Origin: Phycisphaerales bacterium
GTDB lineage: Bacteria; Pseudomonadota; Gammaproteobacteria; Competibacterales; Competibacteraceae
Reading direction: 5' to 3'
DNA length: 32,417 nucleotides
Assembly: GCA_014879435.1 (NCBI GenBank)
Contig: JACSSB010000236.1
Location: 1 to 32,417, forward strand
Below the pieces are notes generated by a model. The model was not told the DNA's origin, ran no database searches, and saw only the letters and a program-made list of their open reading frames with translations. Position numbers and translations under genes: made by a program. This document shows, one piece after another, positions 4,835 through 32,417 of this stretch (its first letter is position 1; every line of letters starts with the position of its first letter).

Positions 4835-7800
4835 TCAGTCAGCGTCCGCACAGTACCAATAAGTCGGGTAGTTAACATTCAGCGGTTCTATGATGAGATT
4901 GGTTCCCCGCAATTTTCCGATCTGTTGCGCCACATCGTGGTCGAAGGGAAAGTCGGGTCGTGTTCCAGACGCTGTACCCCAGTAACCAAAGCCTTGATCC
5001 AAACGGATCGACCAACGTTCGCCGTTGCTCCAAGTTAACACGAGTTCTCGAGCATGAGGCAATGTACGGGGAGTCGCCTCGTGCCACGTGAAGGTCGGCC
5101 AGCTTTGCTGGAACCACTGTTTGACTACCTGCTGGCGATCATAGCTGTCTCTCCAATCGTGGAATATTCGTCGGGGTTGTTCGGTTCCTGAATGATGCAG
5201 CGTAGCAGTTTCCACTCGCACTTCGGTCGTCGGTGTCAAACCACCGGAATAGTGAGCCAAACCCTGCAACAAATCGTGAAGCAGTAGGAGGGTGAACGGT
5301 GAACGCAAATAGCGGTCAGTGTACCGCACGGCTTGTAACGGTGTGGCACGGCTCAGGCGCTCAGCTAACCGGGGTGCCTGCTTTTCCAGGAATATCCAGG
5401 CACGTTCGCCGAAAGTGGCGGATGGTCCATTGAGCTCGGTGGTAATGGTCAGAGTGATCAAACCGGAAGTAGCGGGACGCAGTTCTTCCGGTGCCAAGCG
5501 TTGCCACGGTTCCGGCAACGGCGACAGTGGTTGCTTTTCGGTGGCACGGATGAACGGGCCGCCAGCTTGGCCGCTACCCCAAAGCGGACCGGGTAGCAAC
5601 GCGGTGGATTCCCTCGCCGCCCAGCGTACCCGCCGATTCGTACTGCCTAGTTCCAGAATCGGTGGCAAATTTGCGGTTGTTGCCAGATTCAAAGCAGAGA
5701 CGCAGTACAGTTCCGCGCCGCTGTAGGCGGTCAGCGCGGCCAGTTCGTTGCGCTGGCTGGCGTTCAGAGCATCCAGGTTCGCCGCCGAAGCGATCAGGCG
5801 CACGTTGACTCCGGCTTGTCGCCATCGTCCCAGATCGTTGCGCAATCGCCAAGCCAGTGGTTCCCAGTCCGGCACTGCGCCACCCAGATAAACTCGCAGT
5901 TCGGTAGCTTCCATCTGTTGCCCTTCGCGATTTAACGCCAGGGTGAGCGGCTCTATTTCCAGTTGGCTGTTAGTTCCGAAAGCTCGCAGATTATCGGGCA
6001 GATCCAGCGCGGCCAGGAAGTCCGTCGCCAGTAGAGCAATCGCAGTGTGACGGTTAAGATAATCCCGATGGTGTTGCGTATCGTGAGTTAGCAGGCAACT
6101 TTGACAGGCGGCGTCGCAGTCATGTGGACAATCTAGCGCTTGGCGGGCTTGCCGTAGCAACTTGGGCAGGAGAGCAGCAATCTGGCTGACATAGCCCGCA
6201 CCACCGGTGGCTGTGTCGTAAAGATACAGAGAGTACGTCGCTTCCTGGTTTTCCACGGCACGACTGGGTGCTGCTGCCACGCCTACCTCGGTTTCCTCGA
6301 TCCCCAGCGTCTTACACAAGGCGCAGCGCAACGCTACCGCCAGAGTGTAAGCGGCCGTCCGGTCAATGGGCTTGCCGACGAAGTTGAGGGGTTGCAATTC
6401 AAACACTTCAGTACGAGTGGCGATGCCCAGCCGCACTTCGCGCTGAATTGCCCAGCTTGCTTCTTGGTTGCCTGGACAAAATTTTTCTCGATCATTAAAA
6501 CGTCCACCTCGCAGGCGTTTGTGATTCTTCAGTGCCGAGTCCTGTTCGTTTTCTGAATCAGCTCGCCCACAACGTAAACACAATGCATAGCCTTTACCAT
6601 ATAAACCATCACTGTAGTGAAACAGCGAACCCTGCATGGTCGTTCGGTGGTAGCCCAAGGTTGCATTGGGCAAGGGCATCCAGTCTGTACCTTCCAGAGA
6701 AATTAGCGGATCGCGGACCGGAATATACTTCGGGAGAGTAATGTCATTATGTGGCTCCTGGCGGATATCTACGGCGAAACCGGCTGGCTGGATATAGCGA
6801 TAGCGGGTGAGCTTGCTAGCCGCTCCGCAATGCGGACAGCGCTCCGGTGGGGTAAGCCGCGTTCCGTTATGGCCACATTTTCGGCAGCGCCAGGCCCAGC
6901 GCAGATTTTGAATTTCCGGTTCGGCCTCGGCTTCAGCGGGAATTTGCCAGTTCAGAGTCACGCCGCCGCTACGATAAACTCGCCCATCCAGCACGGTATC
7001 GGTGCCTGGTGCGTAGTCGCGGATGGCGATGGCGAGGTGGCGGCTGGGATAACCCGCCCGACGCGAGCGGTTGTCTTCGCGCTCGTTGTCACCACTCTTC
7101 CGCTTCAAATCCTCTATCGTCGTGGTGACGAAAGGCACAACACCAGTGGGAAAACCGTAGCCGGGCAGGAATCCCAGATTGGCTAATTCGCTCAGCAGAT
7201 ATTCGCCACGCAGGCGCTGCAGCTGAATAGCAATGGCTTGCTCCGGTTTGCTGTTGCCTTCGCGGGTTGCAACGACCTTCTGTTGATCCAGTAGCACGTC
7301 CAGTTCCTGTCGCCAGTGTTTGGCAACCCGGCGCATGGCCTGAGAGGTGCGAGTGAGCAGGTACGCGGCAGACCGACCTGCCAGCACCGTGTGGTGGGTC
7401 AGGGTGGTTAGCCCTTCGGTCATTTGATCAGCGGATGGGGTTTCTTCGCACCAGCCAGCAAAACATTCCCAAGGTGCTGAAGTTATCGCGTCGGTGGATT
7501 CAAAGAACCAACCGGTGTGTAGGCGGCGAATATCGGGTGTGCGGTCGTGCAGGAAAGCAGCCAACGACAGGGCGTTCAGGTGGCGTTGCACGATGGGTTC
7601 GCTTTGCAGGGCGATCTGTGGCAAGCCCAGTCGGCTGGCAAATGGCCACAGTGGATTTTGAAACACTGCTTCTCCTTGAGGTGTAGCTTTGCACAAGGTA
7701 AAACTCAGGGCAGCGGTTTCACCTCGGCGTCCGGCCCGTCCAGCCCGCTGCAGGAAATTGGCTGGATGTGGCGGGACATTATTCATGGCGACAGCGGTCA

Positions 7801-10800
7801 GGCCGCCGATGTCTACGCCCATTTCCATGGTAGTCGAGCAACTCAATAAGTTAATCTTGCCAGTCTTGAATTCTGTTTCACGTCGGCTCAGGTTCGCACC
7901 GGCAATTTGTGCCGAGTGTTCCATGGCGCGAATGTAGCGGCGATGCCGGGCCAAACGATCACTGAGATCGGGCCAAGCGCTCAATGCCCGCAAGGCGCGA
8001 ACCTGCGGATCAGATTCCAGCCAGGTATCTGCCTCTTCCGGATCGCGGCCTAGCCAGAATGGATGTGGAACGCGAGGCATCATCACCCGCTGGCATTGCG
8101 CCAACGTACCGGGTGCAGGCAGGCTGGGAAGATATGGTGTGGTCTCGCGGAATGCCACTGGCAGTAGTCGGCGGGCCATCGGACAGAACCAGGCTTCGCG
8201 TACTTCGGTGAGCACAGCCTGCTTGTCCAGTTCCAATTGAAAGCCGTTTTCGGTCTGAGAAAGCAGGGGACGGATGCCGTCCCAGATGGCGATGAGCATT
8301 TCGTCAATCTGACCGCGCTGTTCTGCATCGTCAACATCTAGGCGAAACACATGACTGAGCAGGCGAATCAGCCGGTTGCGTTTGGCTTGAGATGAACAGG
8401 TTGAAGGCCAAGCGCGTTGAATTTTCCGATTGGTGACTGACACACCCGGTGTGAGCAGGAAGCTTGGCCAGCCGGGATAGCCCAGCCAACGAATTATGTC
8501 CGGCGGCGCTTGGATTGCAGGTTTGCCACTTCGCAAAAAGTAATCGACCGCGACTTGCAGCAATGACCGCCATTCTTCAGGCTTGACGCTGCGCTGTTTC
8601 ATCACTGCCGGTACATCAGTCTTTTCTAAAGCTGGATAGCACAGTTGCACCAATCCTAAACCTTCCAGCGAGAATTGGCGCTTGGGACGCAGGAAGAATT
8701 CCCGCAACAGGCATAGCCTGACCAATAATCGGTCTGACAATAGATCAAAGGTCAGCTCCTTGAGTGCTGGCAACAGCCAACGATTGAAGTCGTCCGCGCC
8801 AAACAACCTATTTTCGGCTTCTTCCCAGGTCAGCCGACCCACGGGTGGCACTTCTAGTTTCATCAACTCCTGACGTTTCTGCTCCAGCAGATCGTACAGT
8901 ACCGGTTTCGGGTTAGCGTGAACCAATGGTTCCAGAGCCTCGATTTCCGATCGGATCTTTCTAACCCGTGCGGAATCAGCAGGCTGGGCGCTGGCGATCA
9001 GGGAGTGGTAAAGTAAACTTCGTACATAGTCGCGTTCACTTTCCTGCTGCAATTTGGCGGCAAAGCGGGCGGTACCTTGGCGGCTATCGGTGAAGGTGAT
9101 CAGTCGCCGCCCATCGAGTGGGCGAGGTTCTTGTCCCTCGGTCAATGGCGGCATGGCTTCCAGTAGGGTCGGAATCGCCGTGCCCAACAGGAATGGTGCT
9201 CCGATCCGTACCGGTTGGAACTGCGTTCGTTTGCGCTCTTTATCTCCGCAGACTGCGCATTCCAAACCCTTTTCGCCAGGAAAACGCAAATGTACGTGAA
9301 TACCGGTGGAGCCTGACGGATCAAGACGACCATCAGGAGCCAATCCCCAGTTGCGTTGGGTAGCCTGATCAAGTCGAGTTAAGAGGCGAGGTTGTTTTAC
9401 CGTTGGTTCGGGTGGTGCTTCGGTTTCGTCCTCATTCTCATCCTCGCTGATCGGTTCCAGTTCTTGCTGAAATTCGTCCTCGTTCAAATCGTATTCATGT
9501 GGAACCAGCCAATCGTGGCCGTTCTCGTGCTTTTCGGCAGTGGACAGGTACTCCGCCCCGCATTCTCCACATTGCACCAGTTCAAAAACTGAGTTTTGGC
9601 AATGCCGACAATGCGCGCGCCGTTCCAAAAAGATCGCACCAAACGGCCAACCTGGCTGATCCAGCTCCGTGCCCGTTCGCCCGGAACAATTGCTATTGGC
9701 GCATGCCCACAAGCCGCTGACGGTGCGTTGGAATAGGTGGCCGCGCAATGGTAGGAATGGTTCGCCCTGATCGTTCACCGCCTGGGTACAGAGATCCAGC
9801 CACTGCAGAGTCTCGCGCTGGGCCGAGGCATCGGCGCGGCCTTTCAAAATTTCGGCAAGTTGACTCAACAGGCTAGGCTGAGAGGCCAGTTGGGCACGCA
9901 CGGCGTGCATTCGCCCATCACTCATCAGAGCCTGGAAACGCTCCTGGGGAGATTGCGCACGTAGCGTTTCCAGGTTGGGGCAAAGCAAGTTACTATTGAG
10001 CAACAATTTCGGCAGGGTGGGAGTTTCCCGCTGACCTTCGATGACGTGCACTCGGTCCACCGATACACCGGCCACATAGGTCAGAAATTCCGCTAGGTGC
10101 TGGCGGGATGCTGCGCTGGCGTCGCCAAGTGTGGCTGAGGTGGCAATAAAGCGTACATCGCCGGGGCGGCAGCCAAAGGTGTGCAAAACCCGCCGCAACA
10201 ACAGAGTTAATTCCGCCGCCTGAGAACCGATGTAAGTATGTGCTTCGTCAATCACGATCCAACGCAACTGGCCCTGAGATTGTTCGATGATGGGTCGGTC
10301 TTCATTGCGTACCAGCAGGTATTCGAGCATGGTTGCGTTAGTGACCAGCAACGGCGGTGGATTGGTCCGCAGGGTACGGCGGTCAGCTACTTCACATTGC
10401 CAGTCGCTGCGAGCCTGCTCCGGCGTGTCGCCGTTGTAGAGACAGAAACGGATGCCGCCCTTGAATGGTTCCGACCAAGCGATCAGCCGATCCTTCTGGT
10501 TTTTGATCAGCGCGTTGAGCGGGTAGAGAAACAACGCCCGTACCCCGGTTAGCGGTGCGTTCTGCCGCTGTTCGAGTTCTGCCGCTAGATCGTTGAGAAT
10601 CGGGATCAGGAAACATTCGGTTTTGCCAGAGCCGGTGCCACTGGTGACCAATACCGAACGTGGTGGCTGACCCTGAATCAGGGCTTGCCAGGCTTCCAAC
10701 TGATGGCGGTACGGCCGTTGCTGGGCGGGGAAGCTGTAGTCCTCGTTTAATCTTGCTTTCTGCGGGCCGAGTAAGGTGCGCACCAAGCTGGGATGCAGCA

Positions 10801-11029
10801 ATTTCCCTTCTAGGCTGCTCAAGGTTTGCTCCGCTGGTTGCCAACCGAAGCTGGCCTCGAAAACCGGATCGGCCAAAAATGCGCCCGGCGTTCCCGCCTC
10901 CCGATCAAACAGCGTGCGCAGATACTCGCGTAGGGTATCGTTGCGGAAACCGCACAAACTCAAGACCGCGCGAGTGGCGCGGCGGCCCAGTTGTTCGATC
11001 AATGTGTTGTAAAACTGTGTGTGTTCCAT
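4835..11029 (-). CDS. druE: DruE-like giant DEAH helicase with DUF1998 region (Druantia type III)
   Basis: Very large superfamily 2 helicase of 2064 residues. Visible motifs are Walker A 'TSGTGSGKT' (129-137), Ia '[11 protein letters not shown]' (about 169-179), DEAH (261-264), 'TSAT' (297-300), motif V '[10 protein letters not shown]' and VI '[10 protein letters not shown]' (about 1065-1103). Several probable zinc-binding cysteine clusters occur near 440-490, 590 and 1380-1405. A DUF1998-like segment near 1570-1645 includes 'DTATGGAGY' and '[12 protein letters not shown]'. An acidic linker lies near 510-540. The last ~400 residues match nothing I can name. Size, domain order and pairing with an ~1100-residue partner fit DruE of Druantia anti-phage systems, where this helicase is the shared component. 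YprA/MrfA helicases are far shorter and DISARM would need further genes. The ATG lies three bases after the druH stop, so the two are co-translated. The helicase and DUF1998 calls are firm; the Druantia assignment is by family knowledge. Confidence 0.8.
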
Positions 11030-11032
11030 GAT

Positions 11033-14000
11033 TCAGCTTTCCAGTGGTTGTTGAGCCAGACCCAGCGTCAAGGTGATCGCATAGATGTTGTCAAACCACT
11101 CCCGGTCGAAGGCGCGCAGCAGACGTAGCTCGTAGATCAATTGCTCGTTGGGAGTGATACCGTTCAGGCTCAGATGTGCAGCTATGAAGGGCGCGCATCG
11201 CACTGGCTGGTAAAAGGGATCGAGGTGGGTATAGCGGTATTCTGAAGCAATGTCCTGTTGCCAGCGCATCATTTCAGGGCTTTCTGGCCATTTTTCGCCA
11301 GATACATGCCGTCCTTGAAGTTCCTGTTCCATCAATGCAATTTGCTGCTCCAAGCATGACGGATAGCAGCGCGCTATAATCAGTTCGCTGTTTTTCAGTG
11401 GCTGTTCGGGGAATAACAACTCCTGGAGCCAGTCGCATAGCGGTCGCCAATAAGAACGACGGGCGTTGGCGCGTTCGCGAAAACTCTGGAATAGTTCAAA
11501 AACAAACTTGCTGTCTGAGTCCACTTCGGCCAGCGTAACTTGAAGCCCTCTGAAATAGGTGGTTGCCGCCTCCCGCCAGTTGTTGAGCGTCAGCAAAACC
11601 CATAAGAACGGCATTTGCTGAGAGAGCGACCAAACGGACTCGAAGGTTTTATCATCGGCCTTGAATAAGGCGAGTGCCAATGTGCGTGGATACGCCGGTA
11701 ACTGGCGCAACACATCCAGCGAGCTGGGCGGAAATTCGTGCGCCAATCGCACATAGTCAAACAGTAACAGCCAGTCGGGATGATCGGGATTTTCTCCCAG
11801 TTCCGTGAGTAGAGTGTTTAATCGTTGTTCCCGTTGATCATGGTTGGATTCTCGGATAGCGCCAGCCAGTGAGGAATCAATGCCTTCGGCAGGCGAACTA
11901 TTCTTCGTGGTGGCAACCCACAGCAAAGGCCGGAACCGTGCCCAGTCGTCATCGCGCCCCACAATCCACCATGGTCCAGGTTCCAGATCGGCGGGAATAT
12001 CCCAACAGGTGATTTGGCTGGGGCTGGCGTGTAAAACCACGGGTAGCTCCGCTGGTGCCCACAGCCGGATCATTTCTAGACGGATATGCGTTTCCCAGGC
12101 TGGGCCGAGGTGGGTCAGAACGGGTTCGGGAATACGCACCTGCCTTGTCGCCTTGTCGGGTTCGAATAGAGCATCGAAGCGAGTAACCCGAATCAGAGCT
12201 AGGCGATGATATGCGGTCTCGATTACCAGTCGTACCTGAGCTTCCAGATCTTGGCTACTGGCTAGCAGCGAGGCAATGCGGTCCTGCCAGGGAAACAAGG
12301 CCGTTTCCAGTTGGCCTCGGTCGAGTGGGGGCAGGCGATCATGGAAACGTTGGCGAAAGCGTGGCTTAGGCTCGCTTTTATGCGTGATCAATTCGCCCTC
12401 CAGCCAAAAATGCTGACCGCCCATCGGATCTTGCACTACGAGATGCAGTCCGCCCAACCGATCCAGAGGAATCCAGTCATCATTGGGTAGTGGTCGCCCG
12501 GCCTGCTGGAAAAATGCACCACGCTGAGGATAGGGTAAGTCCAGCGTGATCGGTTCCGAACCTGCCCAATGCAAGACTAAACTGAGCAGTAACGGCAGAG
12601 TACTCGGTGTGGGCGGACAGACTATTCGTGCCTGCTCGGTAGTGGCTTCTATGGAAACGTCAGCAAAGCTGTTTGAATCGATTTGGACACATGCCCCGCC
12701 CAGTCCACTCAATTGCACGACACCAACTTGGTTACCAGTCCCGATATCAGCCTCAATGTAGAAATCGTGGGGTGCCACATCAACCTGCCGCCGACAGCGC
12801 TCTGCACCACTGGTATCGATCAGTCGCAGCCAGATCCGGCCTCGCGCTGTCTCGTGGGTTTCCCGCCAGATGGAACCGTCGCCAATTGATCGCCACTGAA
12901 TGTGCCCTGTCACAGATTGTCGCCGACCTTCTCGATCCAGCACCTGAATACGTGGAAGACCGCGATACAGCGGACGCTGTTGAAGGGATTGCGGAACGAG
13001 ATCACCGCTGACGAGGAAACTTTCCTCGGATTCAGATTCCGCACGACAGCTAATGCGATAGCGATCTTGCTGCGCTGTGAGGAAATCTACTTCACCACTA
13101 ATCTGATATATCATACGGCCTAATTCGGTGACGATGCCTATGCATTCGCAAGCGCCGTTCACCACTTGTGGAGCAATCTTTGGCGCCACTGCCACCCAGG
13201 CCGATTCCGCACGGGTCTGGGCCGAGCCTTCAGTCAGCCATTCTCGCGCTCCCGTTGTCCCCCGTTCGACAAATATCCACGGGGAAGTACCCCATGATTC
13301 GCTGCCGCGCACTGATAACGGATAATCTCGTTGCCCATCATATAGACTCAGCCGATGCATCTGCTCGACCGCCGCGCCGACGAGTACTAATCCGCTACGC
13401 CGTAACCATTCCCGGCGATAACGGGCAGAGGATCCCGCGCCTTCGGCCAGTGTCAACCACGCAATAGTTTCGATCTCGGTGCATGTATGCAACAAAAGTC
13501 GCCACCGCGGATGTTCCACGCCGGATGCGCCGATCCATTCCGCGATCTGCTGAGCGGTTGGCTGTTCGGGAAATTTCAGACATTTCTCCACGATCCAGCC
13601 AGTATTCGTTTTACGCAACAGTCCTTGCCAGCGCAGTTGCACCGTCGTTTCGCGAGCTAATTCCCCGTAACGGCGTACCAAACCGGCCAACAGGGTTTCC
13701 GCTACCCGGTCATCCAATCGTAATGGCAAATCTCGTCGCCAGTCCGATCTCTGCTGATCGAGTGCCGCAATCAGATCTGTCGCTTCGCCAATACACGCTT
13801 GCAATTCACCGATTTTGGTAATCAATTTGGCGGCTAGGTAGAACACTGGCTCTTGGCGTAAGCTGCGGGGTAAAAGGTGGGACTGTTGCCGAGCGATGGT
13901 TTCGGCACTCTGCTCGCTGCCTTGACCGGACCGGTAATAGCCTTCCAGGACGGTACGGAAAAACTGTGTAAGATGAGCGTTCTCTTGTTGCAACAATCGC

Positions 14001-14416
14001 AGAGGTAATCCGCCCTCACAGGCTATCGTTATTAAAAAGAGACGATAATCGCTGATACTGCGCAGCAAGGGGGGGCGTCCCCACCACTTCAAGCCCTTTT
14101 CTACCCACTCTGTAATTCGCTGATGGGAAGGGGTGTCTATGTTGAGCGACCCGAAGATGGTTTCCCAGGTCCAGGGGCCTGCGGTATGTTTCCGGCGAAA
14201 GGTTTCAGCGGCATACAGACAGAAAATCGGAGCAAAGTGTATTGTTGGCTTCCTATCTGGATTGTTGAGAATTATTTGGTTAAATAATGTTCTCAATTCC
14301 TCGTAAATGACATCACTCATCTTATAGGCATACAGCGGACGACCGTCTGGCGAAGTCTGACGAGTATGAGTGAAGAGAAAGTGTGTCAGCCAATCCCTGT
14401 TAGTATTGCCGCGCAT
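11033..14416 (-). CDS. druH: DruH-like protein (STY4851/ECs_5259-type), Druantia type III
   Basis: Protein of 1127 residues with no nuclease, ATPase or methylase motif that I can find. Near the N-terminus 'DGRPLYAYKMS' (24-34) resembles what I recall of the STY4851/ECs_5259 family, the partner of DruE in type III Druantia. The N- and C-terminal thirds are leucine-, tryptophan- and arginine-rich and look helical. The middle (about 430-720) is rich in short alternating strands and looks beta-structured. No signal peptide or membrane segment is seen, so it is cytoplasmic. The ATG has an excellent GGGAGG seven bases upstream and follows an AT-rich intergenic region likely to hold the promoter of the four-gene block. 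Its molecular role in phage defence is not established. The assignment relies mainly on the gene pair and sizes. Confidence 0.68.
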   Translation of the reverse strand: MRGNTNRDWLTHFLFTHTRQTSPDGRPLYAYKMSDVIYEELRTLFNQIILNNPDRKPTIHFAPIFCLYAAETFRRKHTAGPWTWETIFGSLNIDTPSHQRITEWVEKGLKWWGRPPLLRSISDYRLFLITIACEGGLPLRLLQQENAHLTQFFRTVLEGYYRSGQGSEQSAETIARQQSHLLPRSLRQEPVFYLAAKLITKIGELQACIGEATDLIAALDQQRSDWRRDLPLRLDDRVAETLLAGLVRRYGELARETTVQLRWQGLLRKTNTGWIVEKCLKFPEQPTAQQIAEWIGASGVEHPRWRLLLHTCTEIETIAWLTLAEGAGSSARYRREWLRRSGLVLVGAAVEQMHRLSLYDGQRDYPLSVRGSESWGTSPWIFVERGTTGAREWLTEGSAQTRAESAWVAVAPKIAPQVVNGACECIGIVTELGRMIYQISGEVDFLTAQQDRYRISCRAESESEESFLVSGDLVPQSLQQRPLYRGLPRIQVLDREGRRQSVTGHIQWRSIGDGSIWRETHETARGRIWLRLIDTSGAERCRRQVDVAPHDFYIEADIGTGNQVGVVQLSGLGGACVQIDSNSFADVSIEATTEQARIVCPPTPSTLPLLLSLVLHWAGSEPITLDLPYPQRGAFFQQAGRPLPNDDWIPLDRLGGLHLVVQDPMGGQHFWLEGELITHKSEPKPRFRQRFHDRLPPLDRGQLETALFPWQDRIASLLASSQDLEAQVRLVIETAYHRLALIRVTRFDALFEPDKATRQVRIPEPVLTHLGPAWETHIRLEMIRLWAPAELPVVLHASPSQITCWDIPADLEPGPWWIVGRDDDWARFRPLLWVATTKNSSPAEGIDSSLAGAIRESNHDQREQRLNTLLTELGENPDHPDWLLLFDYVRLAHEFPPSSLDVLRQLPAYPRTLALALFKADDKTFESVWSLSQQMPFLWVLLTLNNWREAATTYFRGLQVTLAEVDSDSKFVFELFQSFRERANARRSYWRPLCDWLQELLFPEQPLKNSELIIARCYPSCLEQQIALMEQELQGRHVSGEKWPESPEMMRWQQDIASEYRYTHLDPFYQPVRCAPFIAAHLSLNGITPNEQLIYELRLLRAFDREWFDNIYAITLTLGLAQQPLES

Positions 14417-20161: not shown

Positions 20162-21976
20162 ATGGCTGAACAGAAAACCCCTGAGCGCAGTTTGCCGGAA
20201 ATCAAAATGCCCGACCCAGCACAGATGGCCCAGCTCTTCTCTCATGTGGCCGAGAAGAGTCAGATCATCGTCAAGGAATTCCTGAATCGGCAGGCAAGCA
20301 GTGGTGCTTTTGATTTGCAGGACACCTCCAGTCTGGGCAAATCTTTCCTTGAGCTGACTCAAAAGATCATGGCCGATCCGGCTAAGCTGGCCCAGGCACA
20401 GATGGGCCTGTGGCAAAATTATTTTGATTTGTGGCAGAAGACTTTGCCGGCTATGTTTGGCCAACCGGTAGAGCCTGTAGTGCGCCCGGAGAAAGGCGAC
20501 AAGCGCTTCAAGCACGATGATTGGCAGGATAACGTCCTGTTCTCCTATATCAAGCAGTCCTATTTGATGACGGCAGGTTGGATTCAGGACATGGTTGCGG
20601 ACGTCGAGGGCTTCGACGACAAAACCAAGAAGAAATTGATGTTCTACACCCGTCAATTCATTGACGCTTTGTCTCCCACCAACTTCGTGATGACCAATCC
20701 CGAAGCGCTGCGGGCGACCATCGAGTCTGGCGGTGAGAATCTGATCAATGGATTGAAAAACATGCTCGATGACATCGAGCGTGGCAAAGGCAAGCTCAAC
20801 ATCCGGATGACGGATCTCAATGCCTTCGAACTGGGTAAAAATGTCGCCACCACACCCGGTAAGGTCATCTATCAGAACGAAATGATGCAGCTTCTGCAAT
20901 ACGATCCCACGACACCGGACGTATTCAAGAAGCCGCTGCTGATCTTCCCGCCGTGGATTAACAAGTTTTACATTATGGATCTGCGGCCAAAGAACTCCTT
21001 GATCAAGTGGGCCGTAGATCAAGGATTCACCGTCTTTCTGATGTCCTGGATCAACCCGGACGAAAAGATGGCTGATAAGGCCTTCGATGATTATCTCCGC
21101 GATGGTCCGCTGGCGGCGCTGGATGCGATCGAGAAAGCCACGGGTGAGCACGAAGTCAACGCGCTGGGCTACTGCCTGGGTGGCACGCTGCTGGCGATCA
21201 CCAACGCCTATCTAGGGGCGAAAGGTACTCCGCGCATCAGTTCTGGAACCCACCTGACCACCATGTTGGATTTCACCCATCCGGGTGAGTTGGAGGTGTT
21301 CATCGAGGAAGAGCAGATCTCCTCGCTGGAAAAACGGATGGAACAGCAGGGCTATCTTGATGGCAGCGAGATGGCAACTACTTTCAGCATGCTGCGCGCC
21401 AATGATTTGATCTGGTCGTTCTTCATCAACAACTACCTGTTGGGCAAAGATCCGTTCCCCTTCGATCTGCTGTACTGGAACTCGGATTCCACCCGGATGC
21501 CGGCGAGGATGCACAGCTTCTATCTGCGCAACTTCTATCAGCATAATCGGCTGAAGAATCCAGGTGAAATTTCCCTGCTGGGCACTCCGATTGATCTGAG
21601 CCAGGTCAAGGTACCGACTTACTTCCTGTCGGCTATCGAAGATCATATCGCGCCCTGGAAGTCCAACTATGCCGGTACCCTGCTACTCGGTGGTCAGGTG
21701 AAGTTTGTGCTCAGTGGTTCCGGCCACATCGCCGGCCCGATCAATCCGCCAGCAGCGAATAAGTACTTCTATTGGACCAACCCCAAGCATCCGGTCGATC
21801 CGGATGAGTGGCTGAAGGAAGCCAAGCAGACCGAAGGCTCCTGGTGGCCGGATTGGTATAAGTGGCTGAGCAAGAATTCGGGCGAGAAAGTGCCCGCTCG
21901 GGTACCCGGAACCGGCCAATTGCCAGTGATCGAGGATGCTCCAGGCTCTTATGTCAAGATGCGTTTGGTCAAGTAA
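20162..21976 (+). CDS. phaC: Class I poly(3-hydroxyalkanoate) synthase
   Basis: Enzyme of 604 residues that polymerises 3-hydroxyacyl-CoA into PHA on granule surfaces. The alpha/beta-hydrolase core carries the lipase-box-like 'GYCLGGT' with nucleophile C338, aspartate D494 ('IEDHIAPW') and histidine H522 ('GSGHIAGPIN'), the complete triad of PHA synthases. The N-terminal ~190 residues form the poorly conserved region typical of class I enzymes, which work without a PhaE or PhaR subunit. AGAGGAA lies seven bases before the ATG. The phasin is just upstream, but no phaA or phaB lies in the window, so monomer supply is encoded elsewhere. A strong terminator follows the gene. Confidence 0.96.
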   Translation: MAEQKTPERSLPEIKMPDPAQMAQLFSHVAEKSQIIVKEFLNRQASSGAFDLQDTSSLGKSFLELTQKIMADPAKLAQAQMGLWQNYFDLWQKTLPAMFGQPVEPVVRPEKGDKRFKHDDWQDNVLFSYIKQSYLMTAGWIQDMVADVEGFDDKTKKKLMFYTRQFIDALSPTNFVMTNPEALRATIESGGENLINGLKNMLDDIERGKGKLNIRMTDLNAFELGKNVATTPGKVIYQNEMMQLLQYDPTTPDVFKKPLLIFPPWINKFYIMDLRPKNSLIKWAVDQGFTVFLMSWINPDEKMADKAFDDYLRDGPLAALDAIEKATGEHEVNALGYCLGGTLLAITNAYLGAKGTPRISSGTHLTTMLDFTHPGELEVFIEEEQISSLEKRMEQQGYLDGSEMATTFSMLRANDLIWSFFINNYLLGKDPFPFDLLYWNSDSTRMPARMHSFYLRNFYQHNRLKNPGEISLLGTPIDLSQVKVPTYFLSAIEDHIAPWKSNYAGTLLLGGQVKFVLSGSGHIAGPINPPAANKYFYWTNPKHPVDPDEWLKEAKQTEGSWWPDWYKWLSKNSGEKVPARVPGTGQLPVIEDAPGSYVKMRLVK

Positions 21977-29697: not shown

Positions 29698-31071
29698 CTA
29701 GTGCTTTCGACGGTTTAACTGGGAGCGCAGCCGAGCCTGTACCAGCGCTCCGCCGAGGCGACCGCGGCTGATATTGAGCTGGCCGTAATACACTTCTTCG
29801 ACCAGATCGCGCACGACGGCTAGGCCGATACCGTGTCCGGCCACGCTAGGATCGGCGCGTTGGCCTCGATCCAGCAGGAGTGGCGCCTGATCCGCTGGAA
29901 TGCCGGGTCCGTCATCCTCAACTTCAAGCACCAACTCGCCGCGCTCACCGGGATAGGCGCGGACCACTACTCGGTGCCGACACCATTTGCAGGCGTTGTC
30001 GGCCAGATTGCCCAGGATTTCCAGCAGATCGCCCTCATCACCATGAAACAGGGTGGTTTGGCCGACTTCGCTGCTCAGGCGCGGCGCCCGGTCGGCATAG
30101 ACCTTGGCCAGCGAATCCAGAATCTTGCGTGTCAGCGGTGCGACGGGCAGCGGTGTACTCAGAGCGATGGGTCCCGAGGCAGCGGCCCGTTGCAACTGAT
30201 AGTCCACCGTGCGATTCATCCTTTCCAGTTGCTCTTGCAGGGTTCGCCGCTGTTCGCGGTGGTTTGCCTCGTTTTCCAGAGCGCTATGTATCACTGCCAG
30301 TGGCGTCTTCAGGCTATGCGCCAGATTACCCAGCGCATTGCGATAACGTTCCACATGGGCGTGGCTCTGGCGCAGCAGCGCATTCAGATTGGTGGTCAGG
30401 GGTTGCAGTTCCTCGGGATAATCACTGCTAAGTTCGGTGCGGCGGCCCGCTTCGATCTCGGTGACTTCAGCGGCGACCCGTCGTAGCGGTTGCAAACTCC
30501 AGCGCAGGATTAAGCCCTGTGCTGCCAGCAGTACCCCAGTCGCCGCTAGCAGCCAGCCCCATAAACTGCGACGGAAGCTCCACAGTTGATCGAGGAAGTT
30601 CCATTGGGTTTCGGCGACTCGAAAAGTGTAGAGCCGATACTGATTGGCGGTGGTTTCCCAACTGACGGTAAAAGCCAGCACGAACAACGGCGTTCCATTC
30701 GAGGCATCCAGCGGTGCGAACTGGGTATCGCCGGGCGTTCGCACCGCCGGGAAAAAGGGCAGCGCCATGCCCAATAGCGAGGGCGAGCGCCAGACCAAGT
30801 TTCCTTGGCTGTCCATCACATCGGCGTACAAACCAGAATCCGGGGTGGAAAAGCGGGCTTCTGGCAGGGCTTGCGGTAAGGTGAGGCGGTTGAAGGTATC
30901 CAGATTAGCCGCACCCAGCAGCATGTAAACTTGCGCTTGCAGACGCTCATGGACGGCGGCCATCGCACTGTCACGAAAGGCCCGATCCAGAGTCAGGCCG
31001 GTCAAGCCGAGAAAAGCAACCAGTACCCCGCTGGCGGCGATGCGTAGGCGACCGCTGAGGGATTTCATCAT
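29698..31071 (-). CDS. phoQ: PhoQ-like sensor histidine kinase
   Basis: Membrane kinase of 457 residues. The first membrane helix is at about 10-30, a periplasmic sensor of about 130 residues follows, the second helix is at 170-190, then a HAMP linker, and the dimerisation/phospho-acceptor domain with H252 in 'NLAHSLKTPLAV', a form typical of PhoQ-type kinases. The ATPase domain has the N-box 'NLADNACKW' near 350, the G1 box 'DDGPGIP' and G2 'GHGIGLAVV'. Its ATG overlaps the TGA of the regulator gene (TGATG), so the pair is translationally coupled. By analogy it would sense divalent cations, cationic peptides or envelope stress; the signal here is unknown. The symbol means 'PhoQ-like', not proven orthology. 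Confidence 0.9.
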   Translation of the reverse strand: MMKSLSGRLRIAASGVLVAFLGLTGLTLDRAFRDSAMAAVHERLQAQVYMLLGAANLDTFNRLTLPQALPEARFSTPDSGLYADVMDSQGNLVWRSPSLLGMALPFFPAVRTPGDTQFAPLDASNGTPLFVLAFTVSWETTANQYRLYTFRVAETQWNFLDQLWSFRRSLWGWLLAATGVLLAAQGLILRWSLQPLRRVAAEVTEIEAGRRTELSSDYPEELQPLTTNLNALLRQSHAHVERYRNALGNLAHSLKTPLAVIHSALENEANHREQRRTLQEQLERMNRTVDYQLQRAAASGPIALSTPLPVAPLTRKILDSLAKVYADRAPRLSSEVGQTTLFHGDEGDLLEILGNLADNACKWCRHRVVVRAYPGERGELVLEVEDDGPGIPADQAPLLLDRGQRADPSVAGHGIGLAVVRDLVEEVYYGQLNISRGRLGGALVQARLRSQLNRRKH

Positions 31072-31754
31072 CAGCCAGCGGAGCGTTCCAACCGAAGCCG
31101 GTAGCCGCGTCCTCGCAAGGTTTCGATGGGGTTCAGCTCTCGATCAGGATCGAGTTTGCGGCGTAGGCGACCGACCAGTACCTCCAGCACGTTGCTGTCA
31201 CGATCTTCGTCTTCCTGGTAGAGGTGCTCGGTCAGCTCGGTTTTGGAGATCACGGTGCCGGCATGCAGCATCAGGTATTCCAATAATTTGTACTCATAAG
31301 CGGTGACTTCGATTGCTTGACCGGCCAAGGTCACCAGTTGTGCACCAGTATCGAGGGCAATCGGTCCACAACTTAGGATCGCCTGGGTCCAGCCGCCGGT
31401 ACGGCGGATCAAGGCGCGTAGCCGCGCTAGCAATTCTTCCATGTGGAAGGGTTTGACCAGATAGTCATCAGCACCGGCTTCTAGGCCCTCGACCTTATCC
31501 TGCCAGCGACCGCGGGCGGTAAGAATCAGAATCGGGAAGCGTCGTCCATCGGCCCGCCAGCGGCGGATCACCTCGATCCCCGATAAATCCGGTAAGCCAA
31601 GATCGACCACCGCCGCATCTATCGGGTATTCCTGACCCAGATAGAGACCGGTGCGACCATCAATGGCGGTATCTACGGCGTAGCCTTGCTCTCGCAGTTG
31701 GGCGGTCACCCGATCCAGCAGCGGGGGTTCATCTTCTATGATAAGAATGCGCAT
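31071..31754 (-). CDS. phoP: PhoP-like OmpR-family response regulator
   Basis: DNA-binding regulator of 227 residues. The receiver domain has the acidic pair in 'IIEDEPPLL', phospho-acceptor D51 ('AVVDLGLPDLSG') and K101 ('YLVKPFHMEELL'). The C-terminal winged helix ends in 'GYRLRLE', typical of OmpR/PhoP proteins. It is followed by its kinase with overlapping codons and preceded, 27 bases away, by a PepSY gene on the same strand. Paired 11-base-periodic direct repeats upstream of the PepSY gene and of the divergent gene are candidate binding sites, suggesting autoregulation. Confidence 0.93.
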   Translation of the reverse strand: MRILIIEDEPPLLDRVTAQLREQGYAVDTAIDGRTGLYLGQEYPIDAAVVDLGLPDLSGIEVIRRWRADGRRFPILILTARGRWQDKVEGLEAGADDYLVKPFHMEELLARLRALIRRTGGWTQAILSCGPIALDTGAQLVTLAGQAIEVTAYEYKLLEYLMLHAGTVISKTELTEHLYQEDEDRDSNVLEVLVGRLRRKLDPDRELNPIETLRGRGYRLRLERSAG

Positions 31755-31781: not shown

Positions 31782-32093
31782 TCAGTCGCGCATGGCGCCG
31801 CTGCTGGAGTCGTAATGCAGGCTGCGTACACGGCCATCCTGTTGCAGGATGCGAACTTGATAGCCGGGTCGGCCATCGCGCTCGGTACCCTGCACGCCCA
31901 GCACGCGCCCGCCCGTAGCTTGACGTGCGGCGTTGGCGGCTCGATCAGGATCGGCAGACTGACGAAGCGACGACCTACGCTCATCATTCCCCTGCTGCCG
32001 GTAATCGGATTGTGCCGACACGCTGGTAGTGGCCAGAAGGCCAGTGAGCACGAGGAGCGGCAGGTACCGCCATCGCTGGGAAGTTTGGGACAT
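31782..32093 (-). CDS. Small exported PepSY-domain protein
   Basis: Protein of 103 residues with a signal peptide ('RWRYLPLLVLTGLLATTSVSA', cut before QSD at about 27-28) and a PepSY-like domain in the second half ('AANAARQATGGRVLGVQ...GYQVRILQQDGRVRSLHYD', abridged). PepSY proteins often sit next to PhoP/PhoQ or Car-type systems and are thought to inhibit proteases or modulate the kinase from the periplasm. It is the first gene of a probable PepSY-phoP-phoQ operon, 27 bases before the regulator. The charged stretch 'NDERRSSLRQSADPDR' separates the signal peptide from the domain. Confidence 0.8.
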   Translation of the reverse strand: MSQTSQRWRYLPLLVLTGLLATTSVSAQSDYRQQGNDERRSSLRQSADPDRAANAARQATGGRVLGVQGTERDGRPGYQVRILQQDGRVRSLHYDSSSGAMRD

Positions 32094-32151
32094 GAGCGGA
32101 TAATTTCTCTATAAAAAATATAAATTAGCTTACAGGCTAACAGGTTAATAA

Positions 32152-32168
32152 TGAATCTGGACTGAATC
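32152..32168 (-). promoter_or_regulatory. Leftward direct repeat, candidate PhoP-like regulator box
   Basis: On the plus strand TGAATC-TGGAC-TGAATC, read leftward as GATTCA-GTCCA-GATTCA. Two identical hexamers with a five-base spacer (11-base period) are the classic layout of OmpR/PhoP-family sites. The box lies 58 bases upstream of the PepSY start. Confidence 0.55.
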
Positions 32169-32224
32169 GAACAGGTTCTCTATTAAGAGGCGAAAAGGAC
32201 AAATTTGGAAAATTATGCTGGATG

Positions 32225-32241
32225 TTCAGTACAGATTCAGT
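32225..32241 (+). promoter_or_regulatory. Rightward direct repeat, candidate PhoP-like regulator box
   Basis: TTCAGT-ACAGA-TTCAGT, a perfect 6-5-6 direct repeat. It shares the GATTCAGTCC core with the leftward box; the two cores form a perfect 10-base inverted repeat (32159-32168 and 32234-32243). A weak -10 (TACGAT, 32264-32269) follows 20 bases after the core. Confidence 0.55.
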
Positions 32242-32325
32242 CCTTTCTTCCTAGGCTGAGGCATACGATAAAAATCGTGGATTTGAAAACTGCGAACTGA
32301 AAAATTCGACGAGGAGTTAGGTGCG

Positions 32326-32417
32326 ATGAAGAAGATGAAGTGGTCAGCATGGCTGGCGGCAATATTAGCATTATGGATTCCGGTTCTGGCCGGAGCGCAG
32401 CAACTCGATAGCGGCGA
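32326..32417 (+). CDS. Partial exported protein, truncated by the window end
   Basis: Only the first 30 codons are visible. GAGGAG lies nine bases before the ATG. The product starts with a clear signal peptide (MKKMKWSAWLAAILALWIP..., probable cut after LAGA), so it is exported. It is divergent from the PepSY-phoP-phoQ genes and has a candidate regulator box in its promoter, so it may belong to that regulon. The family cannot be told. Confidence 0.7.
   Translation, partial: MKKMKWSAWLAAILALWIPVLAGAQQLDSG

Follow-up and report, generated by a model that had tools for sequence, protein, structure and literature searches.

Two PhoP-type boxes between divergent genes and a small predicted PhoP regulon in Competibacteraceae

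The window analyzed here is a whole contig (C20) of 32,417 bp from a bacterium found in sewage sludge and belonging to the Candidatus Competibacter family; the close relatives of this genome are Candidatus Competibacter and other Competibacteraceae. A 232-bp intergenic region (32094–32325) lies between a minus-strand operon, which encodes a small PepSY-like protein, an OmpR-family response regulator and a sensor kinase, and a plus-strand gene for an exported protein. Two direct repeats in this region face away from each other, raising the question of whether they form a single element or two separate sites, and of which regulator would read them.

Two boxes and their promoter geometry

The left repeat, TGAATC-TGGAC-TGAATC, occupies positions 32152–32168 and the right repeat, TTCAGT-ACAGA-TTCAGT, positions 32225–32241, as the initial annotation had reported. 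The core that it considered common to both is also present, since GGACTGAATC (32159–32168) and GATTCAGTCC (32234–32243) constitute a perfect 10-bp inverted pair with 65 bp between them. The term "mirror-image" was a misnomer, as the arrangement is inverted. The proposal that the repeats are oppositely directed, one for each divergent gene, is borne out by the orientation of each box to its own −10 element, which is kept in relatives.

In the register common to both sites, each is a copy of (R)TTCAG-N5-(R)TTCA, and the two are inverted: the minus strand reads ATTCAGTCCAGATTCA and the plus strand GTTCAGTACAGATTCA. The left PhoP-type box (32152–32168, minus strand) reads GATTCAGTCCAGATTCA toward the operon, and the right box (32224–32240, plus strand) reads GTTCAGTACAGATTCAG toward the exported-protein gene. 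The PhoP consensus of P. aeruginosa is GTTCAGNNNNNRTTCAG (PMC3156716), and the PhoP motif obtained there by ChIP-seq is G/ATTCAG (PMC7916210). The right box, GTTCAG-TACAG-ATTCAG, is an exact match to the P. aeruginosa PhoP box GTTCAG-N5-RTTCAG; the left box, ATTCAG-N5-ATTCAT, is one base off this consensus in the ends of each half-site. Neither the enteric GTTTA boxes nor the BqsR (CarR) operator TTAAG-N6-TTAAG is found within 32094–32325.

Shuffling the 232-bp region 5000 times with its dinucleotide composition preserved produced at least two perfect 6-N5-6 repeats in 2.0% of cases, a 10-bp inverted match of any kind in 9.4%, and two perfect repeats together with a 10-bp inverted match in 0.12%, while an inverted pair of 6-N5-6 repeats was never obtained (0/5000). 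Because the repeat pair is also conserved in relatives, its existence is beyond remaining doubt.

A predicted −10 element lies 12 nt past each box: TAGCCT (32134–32139, minus strand) for the pepSY-phoP-phoQ promoter and TAGGCT (32252–32257, plus strand) for the exported-gene promoter. Both hexamers are poor, as would be expected of activator-dependent promoters. This is the geometry of PhoP architecture I (class II), in which a directly oriented box precedes the −10 by about 12 nt; the architecture I promoters of Salmonella (phoP, slyB, mgtA), for which class II is the prediction, have the same 12-nt arrangement (PMC3335776). This spacing is nearly invariant across Competibacteraceae, where TANNNT begins exactly 12 nt past the second TTCA at all but one of the sites on either side (left, 26/27; right, 25/26); no TANNNT is present at offsets 8–11 or 13–17 past the box in these 27 left and 26 right sites. 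The left box of one relative (G005) has an extra third half-site, and its proximal pair is still 12 nt from the −10. A second TANNNT, about 19 nt past the box (GTAAGCT), occurs in 16 of 27 operon-facing promoters and is possibly an alternative −10.

Conservation and natural rearrangements

Orthologs of the regulator, mostly 84–94% identical, were found in about 30 genomes of the family. Both boxes, in opposed orientation, are present in nearly all of the orthologous loci that retain flanking DNA (about 25 family genomes). The distance between them ranges from 32 to 85 bp across family genomes, which argues for two separate promoters. Since selecting sites by similarity inflates the apparent conservation of the TTCA bases themselves, we relied on where the boxes lie and how they are oriented, on how rare they are genome-wide, and on the −10 next to them. 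Across 39 genomes, exact matches to RTTCAGTNNNGATTCA number about two per genome, and the reversed control pattern has none.

Natural rearrangements separate the two boxes. In G034, the operon has a different divergent neighbor (RecB-like by sequence) and the operon-facing box only; the exported-protein gene is located on another contig, where an exact box and a −10 precede its start by about 50 bp. In G021, the exported-protein gene and the regulator are on separate contigs, and the former has a box. The boxes thus follow the separated genes, indicating that each box belongs to one gene and that the pair is not a single element. The operon-facing box was not found in genus g11 (G014 and G021), where only the box facing the exported-protein gene is present, and several deeper relatives (G007, G011) yielded no box. 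One locus, L159 (JAAUTD010000029.1, the same contig as C381 of G034), is titled "Synechococcaceae cyanobacterium" despite its placement in Competibacteraceae, and is probably from a mislabeled assembly.

The repeat extends to the wider Gammaproteobacteria. Of 68 wider loci, 26 have the 11-bp repeat ahead of the related regulator, those of Ectothiorhodospira and Azonexus among them, compared to at most two for any other spacing; a repeat followed by a −10 occurs in 19 of these 68 loci with the 11-bp spacing and in none with other spacings. In about 15 wider gammaproteobacterial loci (L137, L141, L147, L189, L196 and others), a SlyB-like glycine-zipper gene lies just upstream of, and co-oriented with, the PepSY-regulator genes.

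The regulator operon, its divergent neighbor and the predicted regulon

The operon begins with the gene for the PepSY-like protein (31782–32093, minus strand; 103 aa), assigned by a weak NCBIfam PepSY match and a structure model, and continues with the regulator (31071–31754, minus strand; 227 aa; Pfam Response_reg and Trans_reg_C) and the kinase (29698–31071, minus strand; 457 aa; H-box HSLKTPLAV). The regulator, with its receiver and winged-helix domains, adjoins the kinase as expected for an OmpR-family system. It shares 43% identity with E. coli PhoP and is the top PhoP match of the genome (224 bits, vs. 169 for the runner-up). Its best NCBIfam model is also PhoP, at 224.8 bits against an equivalog cut-off of 336, and the kinase reaches 206.6 bits against the PhoQ equivalog cut-off of 497; these curated thresholds may be fitted to enteric proteins. 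In its core, the kinase shares 37% identity with PhoQ, and the HSLKTPLAV H-box is present in both; the alignment spans residues 170–442 only, leaving the sensor region unaligned. As a result of the scores below the cut-offs and the unaligned sensor region, we use the name PhoP/PhoQ-like and do not claim the strict family name. The model of the PepSY-like protein has a PepSY-like fold with an α-β-β-β order, and its nearest solved structures are the PepSY-type proteins YpmB, CD1622 and Rv0603, with weak E-values. Its gene is conserved in relatives, and 40 of 69 wider loci have a PepSY-like gene ahead of the regulator. The PepSY-like gene stands directly upstream of the regulator and kinase, as in DbfQRS-like operons.

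The exported-protein gene starts at 32326 (32326–32417, plus strand) and runs off the contig; contig C355 carries its 3′ end, and the protein is about 275 aa long in relatives. Pfam gives a marginal DUF7918 match alone, and the structure model is poor (mean pLDDT 44.5). Predicted PhoP-type control gives this protein a testable context.

Genome-wide statements are based on pattern searches with reversed-pattern controls. In the 2.76-Mb genome, TGAATCNNNNNTGAATC occurs once and RTTCAGTNNNGATTCA twice, both within 32094–32325. A box followed by a −10 (TTCAGNNNNNRTTCA, 11–12 nt, TANNNT) occurs three times, at the two intergenic sites and upstream of slyB. The genome scan that had been suggested for defining the regulon therefore points to the operon, the exported-protein gene and slyB. 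Scanning with TGAATC-N5-TGAATC at two mismatches was too unspecific to define a regulon (201 sites, vs. 41 for the reversed pattern), and one-mismatch sites beyond the intergenic two were rejected, as they are mostly intragenic or wrongly oriented.

The slyB box is found in about 14–15 of 21 close orthologs, usually about 114 nt upstream of the start codon, and a clear box is missing in about a third of the 21. One SlyB from Competibacteraceae is 38% identical to that of E. coli. The phoPQ operon and slyB are the two targets common to all ten enteric species compared (PMC2650801), and in P. aeruginosa PhoP acts directly on slyB (PMC7916210). Both parts of this core PhoP regulon, the putatively autoregulated operon and slyB, have boxes here. 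In two deeper-branching genera (G010, locus L274; G017, locus L087), a PhoP-type box and a −10 are followed by a small PepSY gene and then a cytochrome b561 gene.

A predicted PhoP-like circuit and its relation to known systems

Judged from sequence, it is very likely that the adjacent PhoP-like regulator acts through two independent PhoP-type boxes, each driving one of two back-to-back class II promoters. The phosphorylated regulator would bind each 11-bp direct repeat as a head-to-tail dimer, at a site that overlaps the −35 position and precedes the −10 by 12 nt. Binding at the left box would result in positive autoregulation of pepSY-phoP-phoQ, binding at the right box in co-activation of the exported-protein gene, and binding at the third copy of the box, elsewhere in the genome, in activation of slyB. 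We infer that the regulator binds the boxes, needs phosphorylation and activates rather than represses, and that the PepSY protein controls the kinase; the last is suggested by analogy to DbfQRS. The initial annotation had foreseen PhoP-like control of both the operon and the exported-protein gene, in agreement with one PhoP-type box per promoter, the best PhoP match next to them, and the box retained by the exported-protein gene where it lies elsewhere. Its PhoP-type reading stands, and it had missed the identity of the box with that of P. aeruginosa, the −10 elements at 12 nt, the PepSY gene heading the operon and the slyB target.

The adjacent regulator could be a bystander, with the boxes read by another OmpR-family regulator of the same genome, since paralogous regulators about 50% identical exist in family genomes and direct repeats with an 11-bp period are general to the OmpR family. 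We consider this improbable: the boxes adjoin orthologs of the adjacent regulator across the class, no such repeat was seen at the sampled paralog loci, and P. aeruginosa PhoP is known to read this motif, while that of BqsR is absent. Repression of one or both promoters by the bound regulator appears equally improbable. P. aeruginosa PhoP does repress retS and rsmZ, where its boxes lie past the −10 and before the start codon (PMC3156716), but both boxes here are upstream of the −10, with the spacing and orientation of activated Salmonella promoters, and the poor −10 hexamers also fit activation.

The perfect 10-bp inverted match might instead suggest an RNA hairpin, a terminator, a looped operator or a mobile-element end. 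This reading was dropped as extremely improbable because the separation of the boxes varies and single boxes occur (G034, slyB); each box also keeps a fixed distance from its own −10.

The two promoters predicted to be activated by the PhoP-like regulator resemble several known systems in part. The box is that of P. aeruginosa PhoPQ, identical at the right site, and slyB, a predicted target here, is a direct target there (PMC3156716, PMC7916210). P. aeruginosa PhoPQ differs in acting on many more promoters (oprH, arn, pagP and others), and the exported protein of Competibacteraceae is no reported target there. To our knowledge, no PepSY gene heads phoPQ in P. aeruginosa. Architecture I of Salmonella and E. 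coli shares the 11-bp direct repeat in direct orientation 12 nt upstream of the −10, and its targets phoPQ and slyB are the counterparts of two predicted targets here (PMC3335776, PMC2650801). However, the enteric half-site is (T/G)GTTTA rather than (R)TTCAG, the core of the Competibacteraceae box being one base away from the GTTTA core, and in Competibacteraceae two such promoters stand back to back.

The gene layout (PepSY gene, response regulator and kinase in one operon) is that of DbfQRS in V. cholerae, whose PepSY protein binds the sensor domain of the kinase and for which positive autoregulation is reported; in contrast, neither slyB nor the exported protein is among the named DbfQRS targets, and a search of the same paper located no DbfR binding motif (PMC12714742). 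PepSY genes also adjoin the OmpR-family regulator and kinase in BqsRS/CarRS of P. aeruginosa (PMC4682146, PMC12714742), but BqsR reads the TTAAG-N6-TTAAG operator, which the intergenic region lacks.

The type of switch is thus known, while its owner, Competibacteraceae, and one target, the exported protein, are new. The locus combines a Pseudomonas-type PhoP box with a PepSY-headed, DbfQRS-like two-component operon and a small predicted regulon. It joins two literatures, on PhoP boxes with slyB and on PepSY-paired kinases. More speculatively, the ancestral gammaproteobacterial PhoPQ may have been PepSY-headed (DbfQRS-like) with GTTCAG-N5-RTTCAG boxes, and the enteric GTTTA form derived; the Competibacteraceae circuit might then comprise about three envelope promoters with a new exported output, PepSY genes being recurrent targets. 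A literature search on Competibacter and PhoP returned nothing specific, and the predicted regulon is unusually small and well supported for a wastewater lineage in which we found no PhoP study. Its three promoters are few enough for complete testing.

The same contig encodes a Druantia type III anti-phage defense pair (4835–14416, minus strand), consisting of a DruE-like helicase (2064 aa; 2336.7 bits to PADLOC DruE3) and a DruH-like protein (1127 aa; 322.6 bits). It also carries a PhaC-type polyhydroxyalkanoate synthase gene (20162–21976, plus strand), which fits the storage-polymer metabolism of Competibacter.
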